Of a DNA stretch of 50,145 nucleotides, positions 3,517 to 15,142 are shown in pieces (position 1 is the stretch's first letter; each line of letters begins with the position of its first letter). The DNA comes from an uncultured SAR116 cluster alpha proteobacterium (GTDB lineage Bacteria > Pseudomonadota > Alphaproteobacteria > Puniceispirillales > Marisalimonadaceae): positions 1 through 50,145 of the forward strand of contig CACMYY010000007.1 in the NCBI GenBank assembly GCA_902618025.1. Direction: 5' to 3'. Below the pieces are notes generated by a model. The model was given only the letters and a program-made list of their open reading frames with translations. It was not told the origin of the DNA and made no database searches. The translations under genes and the position numbers were made by a program.

Positions 3517-4437
3517 ATGAAATTAAAACCATTTGACAAATCTGGAATATTTTACAAAGGCAATTTGCATGGACATAGCGATTACTCTGACGGACTGCTT
3601 AAACCAAAAACTGTGATTGAGTTTTACAAATCATATGGCTATGATTTTACATGTCTTTCTGATCATTTATGGCATGATAAGAGATTTGCTGCAGAAAGTG
3701 TAAATGATGTTTCTGATTTTAATTTTAAAGATTTTATTACAATTCCAAGTGCTGAAATTCATGTAAAAGGAAAAAAGTACGAAAGAGCTGGCTTGTGGCA
3801 TCTTGTTGCTAACGGTTTGCCTTTAGATTTCAAAATTGCATCTGATAACGAAACAGTAGATGAACTACTTAACAGAATCATAGAGACTGGAGCATTTGTA
3901 ACAATAGCTCATCCAGAGTGGTATTCATTATCTTCTGATGAGGCCATTAAAGTAAGTAATGCTCACGCAGTTGAAATCTATAATCACGCCGCAACAATTA
4001 GCTCAAATAGAGGTAGTGGTATAGCTACAGCTGACTTCCTACTAAATAATAATAAAAAAATTTTACTAACTGCATCTGACGATTCGCATTTTCATAAAGA
4101 AGATGCTTTAGGAGGTTGGGTATTCGTAAAATGCAAAAACCTGTCTATACAAGATATTTTATATTCTCTTAAAAATGGCAATTATTACTCTTCTACAGGG
4201 ATAGCAATATATAATATAGATCTTGATGATAATGAACTCTTAATACAATGTAGTCCAGCTTCACACATAATTATTTCAGGCTCCTCTAATACCTGCCTTT
4301 CCAAAAATGGTTACAACATTACAAGTGCCAAATTTGATTTAAATAAGCTTGATACAAGTTATTTTAGAGTAACAGTATTAAACGAGTATGGTAAATATGC
4401 TTGGTCTAATCCTTACTGGTTAGATGAAATTTTTTAA
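3517..4437 (+). CDS. PHP-domain metallohydrolase, CehA/McbA-like, next to phn genes
   Basis: Predicted metal-dependent phosphoesterase or hydrolase of the PHP superfamily, 306 residues. The metal-ligand set is intact: HGHSDYSDG (His18, His20), LSDH (Asp49, His50), PSAE (Glu80), IAHPEW (His132), EIYNH (His157) and SDDSH (about 188-191). A roughly 100-residue C-terminal extension resembles the beta-rich tail of CehA/McbA proteins. Position in the phn transporter operon makes a phosphodiester or cyclic phosphate a plausible substrate. The PHP enzyme PhnPP is known to hydrolyse 5-phosphoribose 1,2-cyclic phosphate from C-P lyase in other bacteria, but identity with PhnPP is not shown by sequence alone. 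Confidence 0.82.
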   Translation: MKLKPFDKSGIFYKGNLHGHSDYSDGLLKPKTVIEFYKSYGYDFTCLSDHLWHDKRFAAESVNDVSDFNFKDFITIPSAEIHVKGKKYERAGLWHLVANGLPLDFKIASDNETVDELLNRIIETGAFVTIAHPEWYSLSSDEAIKVSNAHAVEIYNHAATISSNRGSGIATADFLLNNNKKILLTASDDSHFHKEDALGGWVFVKCKNLSIQDILYSLKNGNYYSSTGIAIYNIDLDDNELLIQCSPASHIIISGSSNTCLSKNGYNITSAKFDLNKLDTSYFRVTVLNEYGKYAWSNPYWLDEIF

Positions 4438-5130: not shown

Positions 5131-6345
5131 TTAGGATACTGCATTTGATGATTTAATAAATCTGTCAACAACGCTTTTACAAACACTTGCAATCTTTCCA
5201 TTACATATTGTTGCTTCTATCTCTCTTGTTTTTGGGTTAATAATTACTAAATCTGCATAATTTTCTACTTTGATAGCTCCTCTTTTGTCAATATTTAGTG
5301 CCTTTGCGGGATTTTCTGATATTAATGCCCATGCATTTTCAATAGAACAAATCTTATGATCTAACAAATACCAAATTGACTGGAGTAGTGATGGATAATA
5401 ATAATCTGATACTAGAATACTACAGTATCCTAGTTTTAATAATTCTAATGTAGATATATTTCCATTATGTGAACCACCTCTGACTAAATTAGGCGCACCC
5501 ATTATTACATTTTCATTATTGAAGTATGCTTCTTTAGCAGCTAAAATACTTGTTGGAAACTCACAAATATTAGCACCAAAACTTCTAAACCATTTTCTAT
5601 CCTTTTTGCTTTCATCATCATGCGAACCAAATTTAATATTATTAGATTTCATAAAATTGCTTAATGTTTTTAAACTATCACTTACTTCATTTTCTTTTGT
5701 TAATCGATAATTCACAATATTTGCAAGTTCACTTTTTTCCATAGACATTTTATTAGCCCATGTTGCAAATGCTGTTGGTTTGTTTTGAATTTTTTCTATG
5801 GCATCAGGTATATGGTTGTTGAATACCACATAATTAAGTTTGTATTCTGTAATTAAATCAATAAGTTCTTGAACTTTTTCTACAAGATGCGTTTCGTACC
5901 TTACCTGAACATTTATATTAGTTATCATAGAAGGTCTGTATTTATTGAGATTTTCTAAAAATATTTTAGCGTATTCAGGACTTCTTATTCTACCTTCCCA
6001 GCTATAGCTACATGCTAGGTAAGCCGTAGTAATGCCATTAATGGAAAGTTCTTTGTCAACTATTTTAAGAGTATCATTCATATCAAAACTTACGCCTGGC
6101 CTTGGAAATAATTGTCTTTCAAATCCATCTCCATGTAAGTCTATTATTCCAGGTAACACCCAAAAACCCGTCAAATCTATAACTGGATAATTTTTTTTTG
6201 GGTATTGATTAGTTTTATTAACTTCAATTGAAGTTAAAAATTTATCTTCAATAGTTATGGTTCCCGATTGCATTTTATTATGATGCAAAAATTTACTGCC
6301 CTGTAAAATATATCCTGAAAATTGATTTGATTGTATTTGATTCAT
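5131..6345 (-). CDS. phnM: PhnM-like amidohydrolase (divergent paralogue)
   Basis: Amidohydrolase related to PhnM, the alpha-D-ribose 1-methylphosphonate 5-triphosphate diphosphatase of the C-P lyase pathway; 404 residues. It keeps IDLHGDGFERQLFPRPGV, NGITTAYLA, GSHDDES, NVIMGAPNLVRGGSHNGN and VSDYYYPSLL. It differs from canonical PhnM at two points: LHTDN is LHGDG, and the SLMDHTPGQRQF block is replaced by VVFNNHIPD. A canonical PhnM is encoded at 12922-14082, so this copy probably has a different triphosphate substrate or a repair role. It lies 51 bases downstream of phnF on the same strand and is probably co-transcribed with it. Confidence 0.85.
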   Translation of the reverse strand: MNQIQSNQFSGYILQGSKFLHHNKMQSGTITIEDKFLTSIEVNKTNQYPKKNYPVIDLTGFWVLPGIIDLHGDGFERQLFPRPGVSFDMNDTLKIVDKELSINGITTAYLACSYSWEGRIRSPEYAKIFLENLNKYRPSMITNINVQVRYETHLVEKVQELIDLITEYKLNYVVFNNHIPDAIEKIQNKPTAFATWANKMSMEKSELANIVNYRLTKENEVSDSLKTLSNFMKSNNIKFGSHDDESKKDRKWFRSFGANICEFPTSILAAKEAYFNNENVIMGAPNLVRGGSHNGNISTLELLKLGYCSILVSDYYYPSLLQSIWYLLDHKICSIENAWALISENPAKALNIDKRGAIKVENYADLVIINPKTREIEATICNGKIASVCKSVVDRFIKSSNAVS

Positions 6346-6396: not shown

Positions 6397-7104
6397 TTAA
6401 TCTTCTAATGTTAATTGAATTCTTTCGCCAACAAACCATGTCTGAGTGAACTCTATTGGAATACAATTTAAATCTTGATTCACATATGTTGTTTTAAGAA
6501 GTGGGCTATTAATTTTACAATCAAGTAAATTTGCTTGAATACTATCAGCTAGCTCTGCGATTATGTTAGTGTTTGACCTAATAAAATCATTTACACCCAA
6601 CAACTTTAGTGTGTTTGTGACAGATAATTCTTTTTGAAATATTTCTAGAAAACTGGGAAACCTTTTATTTGGAATTATTCTTTTAGTTATAATAGTTGGA
6701 ATATTATTAATTTTACCAGTTGTTTCTATTAAAAGAATCTCATCTTTTGAATTTATTTTTAAATTATCAGCTTCTATCTTAAATGCTTTTCTATACTCTG
6801 ATCTAATAATTGTTGTTTTAGGAATATTGTTTTCATGAGTAATATTCTCTGAAAATCTTACTCTTTTTCCAAGTTTATATTTTAACTTAGAAGCTTGAAC
6901 AATTACACCAGAACCTCTTTTAGAAAACAAAATTCCTTCATTTTTTAATATTTGCAAAGCTCTTCTAACCGTGTGTCTATTTACTCCAAATCTTTTTGAA
7001 AGATGATTTTCAGAAGGTAGTTTATCACCTGAATTGTATATGTTATCCGCCACATCTTTTTTTAATGCTTCATAAATTTGATAATAAATGAGTTTAGAAT
7101 TCAT
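6397..7104 (-). CDS. phnF: GntR-family (HutC/PhnF type) transcriptional regulator
   Basis: DNA-binding repressor of 235 residues. The N-terminal winged helix is typical (YQIYEALKKDVADNIYNSGD, KLPSENHLSKRFGVNRHTVR, RALQILKNEGILFSKRGSG; about residues 8-67). It is followed by a UTRA-type ligand-binding domain (about 85-232) with TIITKRIIPNKRFP and FTQTWFVGERIQL. Divergent position next to phnG is the usual PhnF arrangement, so it probably controls both the phn operon and itself through the 86-base shared intergenic region. In studied systems PhnF responds to phosphate status or phosphonate intermediates; the ligand here is unknown. It is the only transcription factor recognised in the window. 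Confidence 0.92.
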   Translation of the reverse strand: MNSKLIYYQIYEALKKDVADNIYNSGDKLPSENHLSKRFGVNRHTVRRALQILKNEGILFSKRGSGVIVQASKLKYKLGKRVRFSENITHENNIPKTTIIRSEYRKAFKIEADNLKINSKDEILLIETTGKINNIPTIITKRIIPNKRFPSFLEIFQKELSVTNTLKLLGVNDFIRSNTNIIAELADSIQANLLDCKINSPLLKTTYVNQDLNCIPIEFTQTWFVGERIQLTLED

Positions 7105-7190: not shown

Positions 7191-7631
7191 ATGATTGAAA
7201 AAAGAAAATCTTGGATGAGTTTGTTAGCAACATCTAGCCAAAGTGATTTGTTAAATCTCTGGGAACAAAAAAAAATAAAAGTCAATTATGTATGGTTAAG
7301 AACACCTGAAATTGGAAGCATAATGGCTCAAGGAAGAATGGGTGTAACTGGAGATAAATTTAATATTGGTGAAGTTACTATAACTAGATGTTCCTTAAAA
7401 TTGAATTGTGGAACAATAGGTCATAGTTATGTTCAAGGAAGAAGTAAGAAAAAAGCTGAAATAAGCGCATTATGTGATGCTCTTATGCAAACTAAAATGT
7501 CTAAAGAAATAAATAAAAATATTATTATTCCTTTAGAAAAAATTAAAAAAGATAATAAAGACAAAATTCTCTCAAAAGCTGAAGCTACAAAAGTTGATTT
7601 TTTTACTCTTGTAAGAGGAGAAAGCGATTAA
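7191..7631 (+). CDS. phnG: C-P lyase subunit PhnG
   Basis: Core subunit of the PhnGHIJ carbon-phosphorus lyase complex, needed with PhnI, PhnH and PhnL to attach the phosphonate to ribose of ATP. The 146-residue length matches the family (about 150). Diagnostic stretches are RKSWMSLLATSSQSDLL at the N-terminus, WLRTPEIGSIMAQGRMGVTG in the middle and NCGTIGHSYVQGRSKKKAE. First gene of the rightward phn operon; its stop overlaps the phnH start (TAATG). The ribosome site before the ATG is weak. Confidence 0.96.
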   Translation: MIEKRKSWMSLLATSSQSDLLNLWEQKKIKVNYVWLRTPEIGSIMAQGRMGVTGDKFNIGEVTITRCSLKLNCGTIGHSYVQGRSKKKAEISALCDALMQTKMSKEINKNIIIPLEKIKKDNKDKILSKAEATKVDFFTLVRGESD

Positions 7632-8200
7632 TGGAAAATTATCCTTTTTCTGAAAATTCTATAAATAGTTCTATTGCTTTTAGATCATTAGTAAATGCAA
7701 CATCATATCCAGGTAGAACTTTTCAGATAAATAAACTTAACAAACCAAGTGTATTGTCAAATGCAGCAGCGACAATATTAATTACGTTATGTGATAATGA
7801 GAGTAATGTTTACCTCTCAAAAGAATATAATACAGATGAAGTAAGGAATTGGTTAATTTTTAACACTGGTGCCATTATTAGTAACAAAAAGAATGCTGAT
7901 TTTGTAATTGGTACATGGAAATCTTTATTGCCATTAAATGATTTCAAAATAGGAGTTCCTGAGTATCCAGAAAGATCTGCAACTTTAATAATTGAAGAAA
8001 CAAAATATAAAAAAGTAAAATGCAACATTGATGGTCCAGGCATAAAAAATAAATTAAATATTGATTTACCTAATCCTGAATTATTTATCGAAAATAATAA
8101 TCTTTATCCTTTAGGTTTAGATTTCTATTTCACAAATGACTTAGAAATTTTATCTATTCCTCGTTCAACAAAAATTAATATCATAAAATCGGAGTTTTAG
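7631..8200 (+). CDS. phnH: C-P lyase subunit PhnH
   Basis: Subunit of the cytoplasmic C-P lyase core complex, 189 residues, as in E. coli (194). The N-terminal FRSLVNATSYPGRTFQI block and the later DFVIGTWKSLLPLNDFKIG and PERSATLIIE stretches are typical, as is the C-terminal GLDFYFTNDLEILSIPRSTKI (leading GLD and IPRST). PhnH adopts a PLP-transferase-like fold without the cofactor lysine. It is coupled to phnG by a one-base overlap and abuts phnI with no spacer (TAGATG). Confidence 0.96.
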   Translation: MENYPFSENSINSSIAFRSLVNATSYPGRTFQINKLNKPSVLSNAAATILITLCDNESNVYLSKEYNTDEVRNWLIFNTGAIISNKKNADFVIGTWKSLLPLNDFKIGVPEYPERSATLIIEETKYKKVKCNIDGPGIKNKLNIDLPNPELFIENNNLYPLGLDFYFTNDLEILSIPRSTKINIIKSEF

Positions 8201-9277
8201 ATGTATGTAGCTGTTAAAGGTGGGGAAGTAGCAATTGATAACGCTCATTCTTGGATGTCAGAAATAAGAAGAGGTGATACATCCATTCCAAATATTTCCC
8301 TTGATCAAATATCAGAACAACTCACACTTGGCGTTGATAGAGTAATGTCTGAAGGTTCTCTATATGATAAAGACCTTGCTGCATTAGCTATAAAACAGTC
8401 TAGAGGTGATTTGATAGAAGCTATATTTTTGTTAAGAGCTTACAGAACAACTCTTACAAGATTTAGTTACAGCAAACCAGTTAATACAGCAAATATGACA
8501 TGCCTTAGAAGGATTTCAGCAACTTTTAAAGATATACCAGGTGGACAAAAATTAGGTCCTACTTTTGATTACACGCATAGGCTTTTAGACTTTAAATTAC
8601 TAGCTGAAAATGAAGCACCTATTAGTCCAAAAAAAAAATATAATGACAACAAAATGCCTCACGTTTTAAGTTTTTTAAATCAAGAAGATTTAATGCAAAA
8701 CGAAAAAGATAACAATCTTGATCCTATCGATATAACTCGAGAACCTATTAGCTATCCAACATCTCGTTCGGCAAGGTTACAAGCATTATCAAGAGGAGAT
8801 GAGGGTTTTTTACTTGGTCTCGCATATTCTACTCAAAGAGGATATGCAAGAAATCATGCATTTGTAGGGGAACTAAGAATTGGCATAGTTGACATTGAGC
8901 TTTATATTCCAGAATTAGGTTTTGAAATTAATGTTGCTGAGATCATTTTAACTGAATGTGAAACGGTAAATCAATTTCAAGGATCCAAAATTGAACCTCC
9001 ACAATTTACAAGAGGTTATGGTTTAGTATTCGGACAGACTGAAAGAAAAGCTTTAGCAATGGCCTTGATCGATAGAGCTTTAAGATGGAAAGAATTAGGT
9101 GAAGATTATTCTGGCGCACCAGCACAAGACGAAGAATTTGTTATTTCACATTGCGACAACATTCAAGCGACTGGTTTTTTAGAGCACATAAAACTACCAC
9201 ATTATGTTGATTTTCAATCTGAACTAGAGCTCATTAGAAAAATTAGAGCTGACGCCAAAGTTAATATGAAAAGGTAA
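8201..9277 (+). CDS. phnI: C-P lyase subunit PhnI
   Basis: Nucleosidase component of C-P lyase: with PhnG, PhnH and PhnL it displaces adenine from ATP to give the ribose 1-phosphonate 5-triphosphate. The 358-residue length is the family norm. Strongly conserved stretches include MYVAVKGGEVAIDNAHSWM at the start, MTCLRRISATFKDIPGGQKLG, EPISYPTSRSARLQALSRG, GYARNHAFVGELRIG and QFTRGYGLVFGQTERKA. It follows phnH without a gap and precedes phnJ by four bases. No missing segment is apparent. Confidence 0.97.
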   Translation: MYVAVKGGEVAIDNAHSWMSEIRRGDTSIPNISLDQISEQLTLGVDRVMSEGSLYDKDLAALAIKQSRGDLIEAIFLLRAYRTTLTRFSYSKPVNTANMTCLRRISATFKDIPGGQKLGPTFDYTHRLLDFKLLAENEAPISPKKKYNDNKMPHVLSFLNQEDLMQNEKDNNLDPIDITREPISYPTSRSARLQALSRGDEGFLLGLAYSTQRGYARNHAFVGELRIGIVDIELYIPELGFEINVAEIILTECETVNQFQGSKIEPPQFTRGYGLVFGQTERKALAMALIDRALRWKELGEDYSGAPAQDEEFVISHCDNIQATGFLEHIKLPHYVDFQSELELIRKIRADAKVNMKR

Positions 9278-9281
9278 TAAA

Positions 9282-10160
9282 ATGAATGAAATGAGTAAAA
9301 ATGAAAATTTAGATATTCAAATTTATAATTTTGCTTATTTAGATGAAAATACAAAAAGAATGATAAGACGAGCTCTTCTGAAAGCATTATGTATACCTGG
9401 CTATCAAGTACCTTTTTCCTCAAGAGAAATGCCAATGCCATATGGTTGGGGTACTGGTGGAATTCAGGTAACATCTGCTTGTTTAATACCCAAAGATATT
9501 TTAAAGGTAATAGATCAAGGCGCCGACGATACTACAAATGCAGTATCAATAAGAAAATTTTTTCAAAAAACTGCAAATGTAGCTGTAACTGAAAAAACTT
9601 CAGATGCATCTCTTATACAAACTAGACACAGAATTCCTGAAACAAAATTAAAAGAAAAACAAATATTAGTATATCAAGTACCAATTCCAGAACCTCTTAG
9701 ATTCTTAGAACCAAGAGAGACAGAAACTAGAAAAATGCATGCTCTTTCTGAATATGGATTAATGTATGTAAAACTTTATGAAGATATTGCAAAACATGGT
9801 CATATTGAGACAGCATATGCATATCCAGTAAAAACAAATGGAAATTATGTTACTGACCCTTCTCCTATTCCAAAATTTGATAATCCCAAAATGAATAATA
9901 GTCCAGCTATTCAACTATTTGGCGCTGGAAGAGAACAACGAATTTATGCTATTCCACCTTATACAAATGTTAAAAGTCTTGATTTTGAAGACTATCCTTT
10001 TGAAGCTATGAAAGCTAATTTCAAATGTTCAATATGTGGATCCAGTGATAGTTATTTAGATGAAATTATTGTTTCAGATGATGGTAAACGATCATACATA
10101 TGTTCAGACACAGACTATTGCAAAGAACAAACCAAATTAAATTCAAAAAAAGAAGATTAA
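9282..10160 (+). CDS. phnJ: Radical-SAM C-P lyase PhnJ
   Basis: Catalytic subunit that breaks the carbon-phosphorus bond of ribose 1-phosphonate 5-phosphate, releasing the alkane (methane from methylphosphonate) and 5-phosphoribose 1,2-cyclic phosphate. At 292 residues it is close to E. coli PhnJ (281). The C-terminal cysteines are Cys249, Cys252, Cys274 and Cys280; their spacing (3, 22, 6) equals that of E. coli Cys241, 244, 266 and 272, which include the unusual CX2CX21C cluster ligands and the essential Cys272. GAGREQRIYAIPPYT and CSDTDYC are also present, so the enzyme should be active. Confidence 0.98.
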   Translation: MNEMSKNENLDIQIYNFAYLDENTKRMIRRALLKALCIPGYQVPFSSREMPMPYGWGTGGIQVTSACLIPKDILKVIDQGADDTTNAVSIRKFFQKTANVAVTEKTSDASLIQTRHRIPETKLKEKQILVYQVPIPEPLRFLEPRETETRKMHALSEYGLMYVKLYEDIAKHGHIETAYAYPVKTNGNYVTDPSPIPKFDNPKMNNSPAIQLFGAGREQRIYAIPPYTNVKSLDFEDYPFEAMKANFKCSICGSSDSYLDEIIVSDDGKRSYICSDTDYCKEQTKLNSKKED

Positions 10161-10162
10161 TT

Positions 10163-10939
10163 ATGAATCAAAATTTCTTATTTCAAGCCTCTAATATTTC
10201 TAAATACTATGGCCAAAATATAGGTTGCAAAAATGTATCTTTAGATATTAATCCTGGAGAGGTCCTTGGAATTGTTGGCGAGTCAGGTTCTGGGAAGTCT
10301 ACATTATTAAACTGTATTTATGGAAATTTAGAAGTTGATGAAGGAGATATTTTCTTAAACGACAAATCAAAAACAATCCTCAATTTTACAAAAATTTCGG
10401 AACCAAAACTTCGTTCAATTCAAAGATCTGATCTAGCATTTGTGCATCAAAATCCTCGTGATGGTCTCAGAATGAATATAAGTGCAGGAGGAAATATTGG
10501 TGAAAGATTAATGGCAATTGGTCATAGAAATTATGGTGAAATTAGAGAAATCGCTGCAAATTGGCTAGAAAAAGTTGAAATTGATGTTAACAGAATTGAT
10601 GATAAGCCAAGTACTTTTTCTGGAGGAATGCAACAAAGACTTCAAATTGCAAGAAATCTTGTAACTAGACCAAGATTGATTTTTATGGATGAACCTACTG
10701 GAGGTTTGGATGTATCTGTACAAGCTAAAATCTTGGATTTATTAAGAAACCTTGTAAGAGAACTTGGCATTGCTGCAGTAATAGTTACACACGATCTTGC
10801 AGTAGTTAGACTTTTAGCTGATCGTATAATTGTAATGCAAAATGGAAATGTAATAGAAGCTGGTTTGTGTGATCAGGTTTTAGATGATCCACAGCATAAA
10901 TATTCGCAATTATTAGTTAGTTCAGTATTACAGGTGTAA
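10163..10939 (+). CDS. phnK: ABC-type ATPase PhnK of the C-P lyase complex
   Basis: ABC ATPase that docks on the PhnGHIJ core, 258 residues from the ATG at 10163. Walker A is GESGSGKST (39-47), the Q-loop HQNPRDG follows, and the signature TFSGGMQQRLQIAR precedes Walker B (LIFMDEPTGGLD) and the H-loop VTHDLAVV. The frame is open upstream to 10100, but that stretch overlaps phnJ out of frame and has no family similarity, so 10163, two bases after the phnJ stop, is chosen. The sequence is closest to oligopeptide-type ATPases, as usual for PhnK. It is not the missing transport ATPase PhnC. Confidence 0.95.
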   Translation: MNQNFLFQASNISKYYGQNIGCKNVSLDINPGEVLGIVGESGSGKSTLLNCIYGNLEVDEGDIFLNDKSKTILNFTKISEPKLRSIQRSDLAFVHQNPRDGLRMNISAGGNIGERLMAIGHRNYGEIREIAANWLEKVEIDVNRIDDKPSTFSGGMQQRLQIARNLVTRPRLIFMDEPTGGLDVSVQAKILDLLRNLVRELGIAAVIVTHDLAVVRLLADRIIVMQNGNVIEAGLCDQVLDDPQHKYSQLLVSSVLQV

Positions 10940-10940
10940 A

Positions 10941-11606
10941 ATGATACAAATTAAAAATTTAAACAAATCATTCCAACTTTATAATCAAAACGATACAAAC
11001 ATAAATGTATTTAAAAATATAAACTTCAGAGTTAAGAAAGGTGAGGTTGTTGCACTTACTGGTAACTCTGGCACAGGTAAATCTACTTTATTAAAATTAA
11101 TCTATGGAAGTTATGTGATAAGTAAAGGTGATGTTCTTATTTCAGATATTAATATTAGAAAATCATCACCTAGAGATATTTTAAAACTAAGAAAGAATAA
11201 ATTGGGGTATGTTAGTCAATTTTTGAGAGTTGTACCTAGAGTGCCAACAATAGATGTTGTAATAGAACCCTTGCTTGAGATTGGATGTGAAAAAAAAATT
11301 GCATTAAAAAAAGCTCAAGAAATATTAGAAAGACTTAATATTCCAAAAAATTTGTGGAACTTATCTCCCTTAACTTTCTCAGGAGGTGAACAACAAAGAG
11401 TAAATATTGCTAGGGGTTTTATTCATAATTATCCGTATTTACTTTTAGATGAACCAACAGCAAGTCTGGACCAAAATAATAAAAATGTTGTATTAGATTT
11501 AATAGAAAAAGCTAAGCTAAATGGTTCAGCTATAATAGGAATATTTCATGATGAAACAGCTAGAAACAAAGTTGCTACAAGAGAAGTCAATTTAGAAAAT
11601 TTATGA
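10941..11606 (+). CDS. phnL: ABC-type ATPase PhnL of the C-P lyase complex
   Basis: Second ABC ATPase of the pathway, 221 residues, matching PhnL length (226 in E. coli). Walker A is GNSGTGKST (41-49), the Q-loop SQFLRVVPRV is characteristic of PhnL, and the signature TFSGGEQQRVNIARGF leads into Walker B YLLLDEPTASLD and the H-loop IIGIFHDE. PhnL associates with the PhnK-bound core and is required for coupling the phosphonate to the nucleotide. It starts one base after the phnK stop and ends four bases before phnN. Confidence 0.96.
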   Translation: MIQIKNLNKSFQLYNQNDTNINVFKNINFRVKKGEVVALTGNSGTGKSTLLKLIYGSYVISKGDVLISDINIRKSSPRDILKLRKNKLGYVSQFLRVVPRVPTIDVVIEPLLEIGCEKKIALKKAQEILERLNIPKNLWNLSPLTFSGGEQQRVNIARGFIHNYPYLLLDEPTASLDQNNKNVVLDLIEKAKLNGSAIIGIFHDETARNKVATREVNLENL

Positions 11607-11610
11607 ATTA

Positions 11611-12147
11611 ATGAAAAAAACTAATGGCAATTTATTTGTGATTGTAGGAGCTTCTGGAGTAGGTAAAGATACTTTATTAAATGAAATAAAAGCTAGGCTA
11701 GAAAATTTTTACTTTGTAAAAAGGTATATTACCAGAACCCTCGATAAAAATAATGAAGACCATATCGCTATATCAAATACTGATTTTCAAAATAAGGTTA
11801 AAGATGGTTTTTTTGCAATAAGCTGGCAAGCACATTCCTTATCATATGGTATTCCAAAAAATATTGAAGATGAATTGAAAAAAGGTGTTAATGTAATTTT
11901 TAATGGATCAAGACTCGCTTTGAAGCAAATTAGGGAAAGTTATCCTGATGCAAAGATTATTTGCATTATTGCTTCAAAAAAAGCTATTGAAAGCCGTCTT
12001 ATATCAAGAAATAGAGAAAGTAAGGATGATATTAAAAAAAGACTTAATAGAGAAGTTGGAAAATTACCTTCGGATACAATCTATGTTAAAAATGACATTG
12101 ATTTAGAAACAGGCGTAAATAACTTAATTAATGCTTTAAATTATTAA
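11611..12147 (+). CDS. phnN: Ribose 1,5-bisphosphate phosphokinase PhnN
   Basis: Kinase that converts ribose 1,5-bisphosphate to PRPP, the last step of the E. coli C-P lyase route. The 178-residue protein has the guanylate-kinase-like fold: P-loop GASGVGKDT (13-21), then RYITRTLD, and a variable lid followed by SHSLSYG-type sequence (AHSLSYGIP) and NGSRLALKQIRE. Its presence implies that ribose 1,5-bisphosphate is made, which requires an enzyme opening the 1,2-cyclic phosphate; phnP, which does this in E. coli, is not recognisable here. Its last 20 bases overlap the convergent DUF1045 gene. Confidence 0.94.
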   Translation: MKKTNGNLFVIVGASGVGKDTLLNEIKARLENFYFVKRYITRTLDKNNEDHIAISNTDFQNKVKDGFFAISWQAHSLSYGIPKNIEDELKKGVNVIFNGSRLALKQIRESYPDAKIICIIASKKAIESRLISRNRESKDDIKKRLNREVGKLPSDTIYVKNDIDLETGVNNLINALNY

Positions 12148-12835
12148 ATTTAAATCTTTTAATAAAATAAAATTTTTCATCACTCTTTTGTCCAAAAATA
12201 CAAATATTATTAAAGTTTATCTTACTTAAATTAACTTGTTTTAAAATGTTTTGAAGAGATTTAAACACGCCATCAATTTCCTCAATATTTAATTTACTGG
12301 TAAGAGTTAAGTGAAATTTGAATTCATTAAATACGTAAGGATAACCCCACTTATAGAGCATTTTTTTTTGATTTGGGGTTAATTTTTCAGGATTTCTTTT
12401 TTTTAATTCATCTTCAGAAAGCTCATCTCTTAAATAATCTAATCCCTTTACAAATTTATTAGATACTTCATTTACTTTGAGATTATTAGTAGGAATTAGT
12501 GCAATGAAATTACCTAATTTTTTAATAATTAGTTCGTCTAAATGAAAACTATGTATTTGTTTTGATATTTCACAAACTTTATTTTCAAGATCATTAAAGG
12601 TATACCCATCCTTTAATCTAAATGGAGCTTTTATTGTGCCATGAAATCCATATTGTTTTGGTGCAAGTACAAATCTAGAAAATTTCTGTAAATTGGGTGA
12701 ACTTGAAAGATCTGACTTAGTAGTTTCTAAACCTTTATAAGGATCCCATCCTAACCAACATTTACCAAACACATCTAGCTCTGAATTTTCTAAAGGTGCA
12801 TAATATATTGCATATCTTTTATAATATTCTTCCAT
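12128..12835 (-). CDS. DUF1045 phosphonate-operon protein, 2H phosphoesterase superfamily
   Basis: A 235-residue protein of the family long noted beside phn genes ('putative phosphonate metabolism protein', TIGR03223/DUF1045). It has the two HxT motifs of 2H phosphoesterases: FHGTIKAPF (His65, Thr67) and FHLTLTS (His175, Thr177). The N-terminal RYAIYYAPLENSELD strand and FVLAPKQYGFHGT are diagnostic. 2H enzymes open cyclic or 2',5' phosphodiesters, and some act on ADP-ribose 1'',2''-cyclic phosphate, which contains the same ring as the C-P lyase product. A PhnP-like role is therefore inferred. The gene is divergent from phnM and convergent with phnN. Confidence 0.88.
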   Translation of the reverse strand: MEEYYKRYAIYYAPLENSELDVFGKCWLGWDPYKGLETTKSDLSSSPNLQKFSRFVLAPKQYGFHGTIKAPFRLKDGYTFNDLENKVCEISKQIHSFHLDELIIKKLGNFIALIPTNNLKVNEVSNKFVKGLDYLRDELSEDELKKRNPEKLTPNQKKMLYKWGYPYVFNEFKFHLTLTSKLNIEEIDGVFKSLQNILKQVNLSKINFNNICIFGQKSDEKFYFIKRFKFNNLKH

Positions 12836-12921
12836 GAGATTTACATATTATAGTTTTGTTTCAATTTAATTAATATATTTTAACTTTTAAAAAAACTGTA
12901 ATATTAGAGTCATATGTATGG
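12836..12921. promoter_or_regulatory. Divergent promoter region between the DUF1045 gene and phnM
   Basis: The region holds an imperfect inverted repeat, with arms at 12846-12861 and 12889-12903, that reads as ACTATAATA outward to the left and ACTGTAATA outward to the right. The leftward arm contains a consensus -10 box (TATAAT, complement of 12847-12852) very close to the DUF1045 start. The rightward arm offers TAATAT at 12899-12904 for phnM. It looks like a symmetric bidirectional promoter; no clear -35 boxes are seen. Confidence 0.35.
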
Positions 12922-14082
12922 ATGTTTAAGGATTGCATGTTGTCTGATGTCATTTTAAATAATGTTAATATTGTAACTGAAGACGAAGTCTTTTTGGGAA
13001 GTATTCAATTAAAAGATGGGTTTATTAAAAGGGTCAATAAAGGAAAAAGCTCTATACCTAGATCTATAGATTGCAATGAAGATTATTTAATTCCAGGTTT
13101 AGTTGAACTACACACAGATAATTTAGAAAGGCATCTCAAACCAAGACCTGGTGTAAATTGGCCTATAAATAATGCTCTTACAGCTCACGATGGAGAATTA
13201 GCATCTGCAGGTATTACAACTGTTTTCGATGCTTTAAGAGTAGGATCTATTAACAGAGATGGTGTGCATAGATATGACAAATATGCAAGAGAAACAGCCA
13301 CCTCTATCAATAACTTATCAAAAGACAAATCTTTTAAGATTGATCATTTTATTCATCTAAGAGCTGAAATATGTTCAGAAAATTTAATTCAGGAGTTAGA
13401 AGAATTCAACGATCAGGATAAGGTAAAAATAGTTAGTCTTATGGATCACACACCAGGCCAAAGACAGTTTCGTGATGTTTCACAGTTCAAAGTTTATTTA
13501 TCAGGGAAATTTGGTCTTTCGGAAACACAAATTCAACAACACTTTTCATACTTAAAAGATCTTCAAAAAATGTTTGGTAAAAAACATAAAATTGAAACAA
13601 TAAAATTTAGTAAAAGATTAAATGCAGTATTGGCTAGTCATGATGATACTACAATTTCTGATGTGGAAGAGAGTTGTTCACAAGGTATAAATTTAGCTGA
13701 GTTTCCAACCACTCTTGAAGCAGCAACAAAGTGTAAAAGCAGTAACATAAAAATAATAATGGGAGCACCAAATTTAGTAAGAGGAGGATCTCATTCAGGT
13801 AATGTTTCAGCTCAATCACTTATTGATAAAGACCTTCTAGATATTTTAAGTTCTGATTACGTGCCTTCATCATTGATGATGGCAGCAATAATGTGGGGCA
13901 TAAAATCTAATAATTTACCCAAAAGTATCGCTGCAGTAACTGCTAACCCCTGTAAAGTTACAGGCTTAAATGATAGAGGAATGATTAAAGAAGGTTTAAA
14001 AGCAGATTTGGTAAGATTAAGTATTAAAAAGGATTTACCAATCATTAGAAAAGTATGGGCAAGTGGTCGAGAAGTTGCTTAA
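12922..14082 (+). CDS. phnM: Alpha-D-ribose 1-methylphosphonate 5-triphosphate diphosphatase PhnM
   Basis: Cytoplasmic amidohydrolase that removes pyrophosphate from ribose 1-phosphonate 5-triphosphate to give the PhnJ substrate. The 386 residues align along their length with E. coli PhnM: LVELHTDNLERHLKPRPGVN, AHDGELASAGITTVFDA, SLMDHTPGQRQF, LASHDDTT, EFPTTLEAA, IMGAPNLVRGGSHSGN, LLDILSSDYVPSSLM and LNDRGMIKEGLKADLV. ATG 12922 is used; ATG 12937 is also possible, with an AAGGA site only four bases before it. The acr3 gene follows after seven bases. Confidence 0.95.
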   Translation: MFKDCMLSDVILNNVNIVTEDEVFLGSIQLKDGFIKRVNKGKSSIPRSIDCNEDYLIPGLVELHTDNLERHLKPRPGVNWPINNALTAHDGELASAGITTVFDALRVGSINRDGVHRYDKYARETATSINNLSKDKSFKIDHFIHLRAEICSENLIQELEEFNDQDKVKIVSLMDHTPGQRQFRDVSQFKVYLSGKFGLSETQIQQHFSYLKDLQKMFGKKHKIETIKFSKRLNAVLASHDDTTISDVEESCSQGINLAEFPTTLEAATKCKSSNIKIIMGAPNLVRGGSHSGNVSAQSLIDKDLLDILSSDYVPSSLMMAAIMWGIKSNNLPKSIAAVTANPCKVTGLNDRGMIKEGLKADLVRLSIKKDLPIIRKVWASGREVA

Positions 14083-14089
14083 ATAAAAG

Positions 14090-15142
14090 ATGTATCCAAA
14101 ACATAAAAAATTAAATCTATCATTTTTAGATAAATACCTAACTCTATGGATATTTCTTGCAATGATTATAGGTATAGTTATTGGTAATGTTTTTCTTAAT
14201 ATGCCCAAATTTCTTGATTCAATAACTTTCAGTAATACAAATATTCCTATTGCAATAGGGCTTATTCTAATGATGTATCCACCTTTAGCAAAAGTTAAAT
14301 ATAAAAAAATTATTGAAGTTTTTAAAGATAAGAAAGTCTTAGCTTTGTCTTTATTTCAAAATTGGATAATAGGCCCTGCATTGATGTTTTTTTTAGCTGT
14401 TACTTTTCTTTCTGATAAGCCTGAATATATGACTGGCGTCATACTAATTGGTCTAGCTAGATGTATAGCAATGGTTCTTGTTTGGAATGAGTTGGCTAGA
14501 GGAAGTTCAGAATATGTAGCAGGATTAGTTGCCTTTAATTCAATTTTTCAAATTATCTTCTTCGCGCCTTATGCGTGGTTTTTTTTAAAAATTTTGCCGG
14601 AATTTTTTGGATATGGTGGACAAATTATTGATATCTCAATATTATACATCGCCAAAATTATTCTAATTTATCTTGGTATTCCATTTTTAGCAGGTTTTGT
14701 GACAAGATCATTATTAGTTAAAAGATATGGTGAAGAATGGTACGAGAACAAGTTTCTTTCTAGAATAAGTCCTATAACTTTAATTGCGCTGTTATTTACA
14801 ATAATTGTTATGTTTACTCTAAAAGGAAATGAACTTTTGAAACTACCTTTAGATGTTTTAACAATATCAATTCCTTTAGTCATATATTTTCTAATCATGT
14901 TTTTTATTAGTTTTGGTATCAGCACGTTTTATAATATTAATTATCCAAAGGCTACTTCTTTATCATTCACTGCAGCTTCAAATAATTTTGAATTAGCTAT
15001 TGCAGTTTCAATTGCCACTTTTGGGCTTGCATCAAAAGAGGCTTTCGCAACTGTTATTGGTCCTCTTGTTGAAGTACCTATACTAATATTACTAGTTTCC
15101 GTTGCTTTGAAATTTAAAGAAAAATATTTTAAGTATATTTAA
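14090..15142 (+). CDS. acr3: ACR3-family arsenite efflux permease
   Basis: Inner-membrane arsenite exporter with about ten membrane segments, 350 residues. The two residues important in ACR3 are present: Cys125 in [18 protein letters not shown] and Glu301 in [18 protein letters not shown]; their spacing fits Cys129 and Glu305 of the studied Alkaliphilus protein. GPLVEVP closes the domain. It starts seven bases after phnM and is therefore probably expressed with phosphonate genes. No arsenate reductase or ArsR lies in the window, so arsenate reduction must occur elsewhere. Placement beside phosphorus-acquisition genes suggests protection from arsenate taken up during phosphate starvation. Confidence 0.93.

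Follow-up and report, generated by a model that had tools for sequence, protein, structure and literature searches.

Among the enzymes with which the gene described here can be compared, PhnP of E. coli is a metal-dependent protein of the MBL fold, while PhnPP, the substrate of which is the C-P lyase product, continues the reaction to free phosphate and bypasses PhnN. The 2H phosphoesterases form a further family, of which a double HxT motif is the trait and in which the two histidines have catalytic roles; one of them, the Arabidopsis cyclic phosphodiesterase (CPDase), acts on a ribose 1'',2''-cyclic phosphate, the ring of which it opens so that the 1''-phosphate remains.

The idea that a protein of the DUF1045 family takes the place of PhnP is already in print: a review states it, and so do a marine study of 2013 and a genome paper of 2021, with citations of work of 2005-2014. 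In the parts of these papers that are accessible, the function is proposed for the 2H gene in PMC3840354 and, with reference to Hove-Jensen 2014, in PMC8235418, and the proposal is repeated in PMC5649143 and PMC6981132. The available text of PMC10574752 makes the proposal too, citing Podzelinska 2009, and lists 54 operons, with PhnP in 27 and rcsF in 16 lacking PhnP; the 2H assignment that they have in common, together with the position next to phnM, is the ground for equating the rcsF of these papers with DUF1045. According to an excerpt of PMC3840354, a fosmid with the 2H gene and without phnP let E. coli lacking phnHIJKLMNOP grow on methylphosphonate, the 2H gene being part of the whole cluster, and a DUF1045 protein is named among the phosphate-stress proteins of a roseobacter in the accessible part of PMC10132767. 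Within the available portions of the open-licence literature, no enzymatic assay of DUF1045 was found.

In oxic water, methylphosphonate is a source of methane through the C-P lyase pathway of SAR116, SAR11 and roseobacters, all marine alphaproteobacteria, and the last steps of this pathway in these groups depend, on the reading preferred here, on an enzyme annotated as of 'unknown function'. In the following, a SAR116 gene cluster is described in which DUF1045 very probably acts as a metal-free 2H cyclic phosphodiesterase in place of PhnP, which depends on metal. If so, the pathway would be completed for these groups, annotations that count them as phnP-less, or give them a wrong phnP, would be corrected, and the displacement of a metal-dependent enzyme by an unrelated one would be clearly exemplified. 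What is new with respect to the published proposal is a larger exclusion pattern, a structural match, a PhnP relic, relocated copies of the gene and genomes that keep DUF1045 without PhnJ.

The C-P lyase gene cluster of the window

The window, i.e. the whole stretch of 50,145 nucleotides of SAR116 DNA that was analysed, contains at its edge a truncated phnD-like gene and two phnE-like genes (all named by eye from sequence), which are followed by a PHP-domain gene of the CehA/McbA-like kind, which belongs to the transporter arm (3517-4437, + strand), a hexapeptide transferase gene (TIGR03308, 287 bits), a second gene for a PhnM-like amidohydrolase (5131-6345, - strand; NF011987, 373.9 bits) and, adjoining it, the gene of the regulator PhnF (6397-7104, - strand; TIGR02325, 181.8 bits, cut-off 156.8). 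The + strand then carries phnG (7191-7631; TIGR03293, 155.5 bits, cut-off 89), phnH (7631-8200; TIGR03292, 128.5 bits, cut-off 91.5), phnI (8201-9277), phnJ, the source of the cyclic phosphate (9282-10160; PF06007, 479.2 bits), phnK (10100-10939; TIGR02323, 351.5 bits, cut-off 302.85), phnL (10941-11606; TIGR02324, 294.8 bits, cut-off 256.3) and phnN, for ribose 1,5-bisphosphate phosphokinase (11611-12147; TIGR02322, 169.7 bits, cut-off 156). The genes assigned as phnI and phnJ have no NCBIfam match, the former being named from its position and from homology to same-place genes of other loci. After phnN come DUF1045 on the opposite strand (12128-12835, -) and phnM (12922-14082, +; TIGR02318, 425.6 bits, cut-off 390.55).

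The gene arrangement is as the earlier note had described it, with DUF1045 convergent with phnN and divergent from phnM in a locus that has phnN and lacks phnP. The 3' end of DUF1045 overlaps that of phnN by 20 bases, 86 bases separate its start from that of phnM, and no phnP was seen anywhere in the window. The gap between DUF1045 and phnM contains one site (12896-12913) that resembles a Pho box with three mismatches, but the window as a whole holds 6 such sites against 5.66 expected, and the candidate was rejected. Directly 3' of phnM lies a gene for an ACR3 arsenite efflux transporter (14090-15142, +; 430 bits), after which comes a SAM methyltransferase gene. The PhnJ of the window is 100% identical to that of the record SAR116 AG-892-C19, and PMC3840354 mentions an additional phnM-like gene, without an assigned role, in the cluster of a marine roseobacter.

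The DUF1045 protein and its proposed reaction

The protein, of 235 aa and called rcsF in phn clusters, matches Pfam DUF1045 (PF06299) with 144.4 bits, above the gathering cut-off of 24.3, and spans positions 1-227 of the 228 of TIGR03223 ('putative phosphonate metabolism protein') with 204.7 bits, under the curated cut-off of 248.95. The family note of TIGR03223 (Phn_opern_protn) places its members in a C-P lyase gene cluster, where the gene of the window is indeed located. It shares with the described rcsF the family, the place by phnM and phnN and the function proposed in print, but the SAR116 copy is divergent and scores under the TIGR03223 cut-off. The NCBIfam search gave no match of this protein to TIGR03307, the PhnP model, and the predicted fold is 2H rather than MBL.

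The two H-x-[TS] motifs, His65/Thr67 and His175/Thr177, lie where they had been claimed, and they prove conserved when 108 DUF1045 proteins are aligned, of which 87 are labelled phn-linked, 15 stand alone and 6 belong to a purine operon. Arg7, Tyr62, His65, Thr67, Pro71, Arg136, Gly164, Tyr165, His175 and Leu178 are invariant in all 87 phn-linked copies, and Thr177 is found in 86, with Ser in the remaining one; each of the 15 stand-alone copies keeps His65, Thr67, His175, Thr177, Arg7, Tyr62, Arg136 and Tyr165. In the AlphaFold2 model of the window protein (pLDDT 92.7, pTM 0.90) a 2H fold is predicted, for which Foldseek retrieves from the PDB YjcG (6e-8), the Arabidopsis CPDase (1jh6, 1fsi and 1jh7; 6e-7 to 1e-5) and E. 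coli LigT (7e-4), with a TMq of only 0.45-0.54 and identities of 9-14% to these solved 2H enzymes. A sequence profile search of solved structures with DUF1045 returned nothing under E 0.1. The Appr>p cyclic phosphodiesterase, to the activity of which the earlier note had pointed, is thus recovered from the predicted model, the title of 1fsi naming the 'cyclic nucleotide phosphodiesterase of Appr>p'. The likeness to CPDase, LigT and YjcG lies in the 2H fold and the double HxT motif, whereas their substrates are nucleotides, and most of the chains matched are shorter (168-185 aa).

PhnJ makes 5-phosphoribosyl 1,2-cyclic phosphate. In the reaction that we infer for DUF1045, His65 and His175 would serve as an acid/base pair in place of a metal, Thr67 and Thr177 would hold the phosphate in the cleft and water would open the ring on the 2-O side; the resulting alpha-ribose 1,5-bisphosphate would be turned into PRPP by PhnN. 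The proposed substrate and product are the same as those of PhnP, the fold of which is unrelated. That DUF1045 is the missing PhnP, as the earlier note had it, gains support from motif conservation, from the 2H fold and from the exclusion pattern described below, substrate and product being assigned conditionally.

Distribution of DUF1045 and PhnP

The inverse occurrence of DUF1045 and phnP that had been anticipated is found among genomes. In a first sample of 299 genomes of the phylum, a real PhnJ is present in 51, DUF1045 in 48 and PhnP over its cut-off in 11, G040 having been dropped from 52 PhnJ rows for a weak PhnJ match with stops (E 7e-4). The 51 PhnJ genomes divide into 40 with DUF1045 only and 11 with PhnP only, none having both and none neither; DUF1045 is found in 40/51 PhnJ genomes versus 8/248 of those without PhnJ, which is more than chance. 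The PhnP search of this sample was run at E 1e-30, a threshold that weaker PhnP relics would escape. A second sample consists of 274 genomes from the class to which G249 belongs. Nine of them have PhnJ, and of these nine 6 carry DUF1045 and the other 3 PhnP over the cut-off. With G249, which belongs to both samples, counted once, the 59 pooled PhnJ genomes comprise 45 with DUF1045 and 14 with PhnP over the cut-off, and again both and neither are never observed; a routine co-occurrence of the two, named in the earlier note as contrary evidence, is thus not seen. Fisher's exact test gives p = 8e-14 for the exclusion, a value that ignores the kinship of these related genomes. Indeed, in a PhnJ tree the PhnP/DUF1045 split follows clades and only two independent switches are seen; both independent pairs lie in the expected direction in most pairings, with no statistical power at n=2 (sign test, median p 0.5). 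For this tree 113 rows were reduced to 59, through a number rule and the retention of seven named rows; L003, a near-duplicate, is absent from the trees. Each row carries the label of its genome, and L048 thus counts as DUF1045 though its contig ends before that gene. The rule of mutual exclusion is shown for the proteobacterial samples only. Among plasmid records, 146 hold DUF1045 and 22 PhnP, and no genus is common to the two among the genera listed (ten each, DUF1045 having 11 more).

Where PhnP is present, its gene follows phnN in 6/6 PhnP clusters examined; in G441 it is on a different contig from phnJ. PhnN itself is found in 38/40 genomes with DUF1045 and PhnJ, in 11/11 PhnP genomes and in 0/8 genomes with DUF1045 and without PhnJ, its absences being soft, as the search (E 1e-20) scored at most 47 candidates per genome; two further DUF1045 loci (L168, L171) have no PhnN within 20 kb. 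Because PhnN accompanies DUF1045 and PhnP genomes alike, its distribution favours a 1-phosphate as the product.

The loci nearest to that of the window give a similar picture. The named PhnJ loci are the best 80 of at least 595 stretches, and are biased towards relatives of the window PhnJ; DUF1045 lies within the fetched flank in 63 of them, 43 of these with the order phnN(+) DUF1045(-) phnM(+), and PhnP in 0. Among the 17 loci without it, L048, L051, L055, L059 and L103 run into the edge of a contig, and the genomes of the remaining 12 were searched in full. In nine of these, phnN is followed by phnM with no DUF1045 in between, and in 11 of the 12 DUF1045 is found elsewhere in the genome; PhnP over the cut-off was found in none. 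The exception is G303 (from L077), a MAG of 2.3 Mb with PhnJ and with neither DUF1045 nor PhnP over the cut-off. In L082 the slot holds a remnant that matches residues 2-113, and a full copy is present elsewhere in the same genome (L147).

A PhnP-like gene beside DUF1045

Two congeneric species (G389 and G507, i.e. 2 of the 45 DUF1045 genomes) have the gene order phnM, DUF1045, phnN and a PhnP-like gene, which scores 142 and 117 bits, respectively, versus the PhnP cut-off of 272. The PhnP-like proteins (L164, 4267-5001; L169, 4942-5676) both lack the HxHxDH motif that all 8 intact PhnP proteins compared possess, and a further His and Asp, aligned in three intact PhnP proteins, are also missing from both; in E. 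coli PhnP these residues are metal ligands. The reading frames are still open, and the case is that of a single lineage, its taxonomic order being represented in the genome set by only two genomes. Judging from these residues, in the sampled genomes that have both families PhnP appears to be non-functional and DUF1045 to be intact. Relaxed selection on the relic was considered and set aside: in the one species pair available dN/dS is about 0.46 for the PhnP-like gene versus 0.38 for DUF1045, 0.37 for phnL and 0.20 for phnM, which is no sharp difference, so that the lost motif by itself carries the relic claim.

Alternative explanations

That a phnP might lie elsewhere in the genome of the window, which the earlier note had named as a finding that would speak against its proposal, was considered in the available assembly (65 contigs totalling 1.55 Mb, with a completeness of 75%), where the PhnP model gives two matches, of 77.5 and 35.6 bits, both under the cut-off of 272.25. 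The candidates for a second phnP are, therefore, sub-cut-off MBL proteins only. The better one is encoded immediately 3' of tatD and of an ORF that looks MetRS-like by eye, outside any phn cluster, and carries the HxHxDH motif. That this or some other cellular enzyme carries out the reaction of PhnP, DUF1045 having a different task in the pathway, is decidedly improbable. Besides the motif, sub-cut-off matches to the PhnP model (48-57 bits) in five of the 12 genomes without DUF1045 by phnJ speak for it, and the phnP reported on the basis of KEGG for seven Marivita genomes, in the accessible part of PMC8774927, may be this kind of MBL protein. However, the score is far under the cut-off and the surroundings are those of a housekeeping gene, the model weakly matches control genomes as well (e.g. 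Caulobacter vibrioides), and the retention of DUF1045 in 45/45 sampled PhnJ genomes without PhnP over the cut-off would be left unexplained.

The PHP-domain protein (3517-4437) could instead act like PhnPP, yielding ribose 5-phosphate and phosphate from the cyclic phosphate. According to the available part of its description, PhnPP (Elen0235), a PHP-family enzyme of a fold other than that of DUF1045, cleaves the two ester bonds of a cyclic phosphodiester, and the gene of the window has a score of 69.3 bits for the CehA/McbA group, under the cut-off of 80, with relatives in L044, L070 and L096. The candidate was rejected as very improbable, since it is rare and always found together with DUF1045: it occurs in only four sources of the ORF set (the window, L001-L123 and L144-L158), L044 being nearly the window itself, and DUF1045 is present in all four. 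Moreover, PF02811 gives it 20.3 bits, under the cut-off of 26.4, and such a route would leave PhnN without a substrate. It is scarcely probable at all that DUF1045 opens the same ring the other way, to ribose 2,5-bisphosphate, with PhnN not its partner; a PhnN match is absent from 2/40 genomes with PhnJ and DUF1045, but it is kept in the other 38, and PhnN is likewise unlisted for the five plasmid clusters that have no PhnP and no DUF1045 listed. The replacement of PhnP by DUF1045 acting ahead of PhnN is the preferred reading.

Plasmid clusters with other gene contents

Six plasmid phn clusters, picked mainly for divergence, were opened of 215 PhnJ records. A Variovorax plasmid has the order phnN-DUF1045-phnF, and for those of Thermus, Halomarina, Arthrobacter, Proteus and Labrenzia no DUF1045, PhnP or PhnN is listed within 9 kb in the plasmid gene table, which is incomplete and covers plasmids only. 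PhnJ can, therefore, occur without DUF1045 or PhnP nearby, and routes other than these two probably exist. In the set L179, L180 and L181 the gene after phnM is of the sugar phosphate isomerase/epimerase family (Halomarina), of the inositol monophosphatase family (Arthrobacter) or DapH-related (Thermus), and these genes are possible leads to such routes. In L182 and L184 plasmid-borne phnGHIJKL, with no phnM listed, lie beside ABC transporter genes annotated as iron-type.

DUF1045 outside the C-P lyase cluster

In a tree of 108 long DUF1045 matches, in which all copies not named stand-alone or purine-linked were labelled phn, and L005, L019 and L145 stand-alone though a phnM-like gene adjoins, the stand-alone copies are scattered among the phn-linked ones, and the nine that belong to PhnJ genomes need nine changes. 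This topology fits a repeated relocation of DUF1045.

In the 299-genome sample DUF1045 occurs in eight genomes that lack PhnJ; for two of these the match is weak and partial. Six genomes without a PhnJ or PhnN match (L004-L009) keep DUF1045 with a full active site, in L005 with a neighbouring phnM-like gene, and because of these DUF1045 probably has a second role besides C-P lyase. PRPP breakdown forms the same cyclic phosphate. It is conceivable, though unlikely, that DUF1045 hydrolyses 5-phosphoribosyl 1,2-cyclic phosphate of any source, as a repair enzyme that would clear the PRPP breakdown product in genomes lacking C-P lyase, and that it was recruited into phn clusters, where it would have displaced PhnP and left relics without the metal motif.

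A paralogue of DUF1045 is found in a urate/allantoin operon of Rhizobiaceae-like genomes (L013, 7889-8779; L014, 9724-10431; L015, 9975-10682; and L153, L155 and L158). Thr67 and Thr177 are each lost in 4/6 of these proteins and Tyr165 in at least 5/6; both histidines are kept in all six, which form one clade (100/98).
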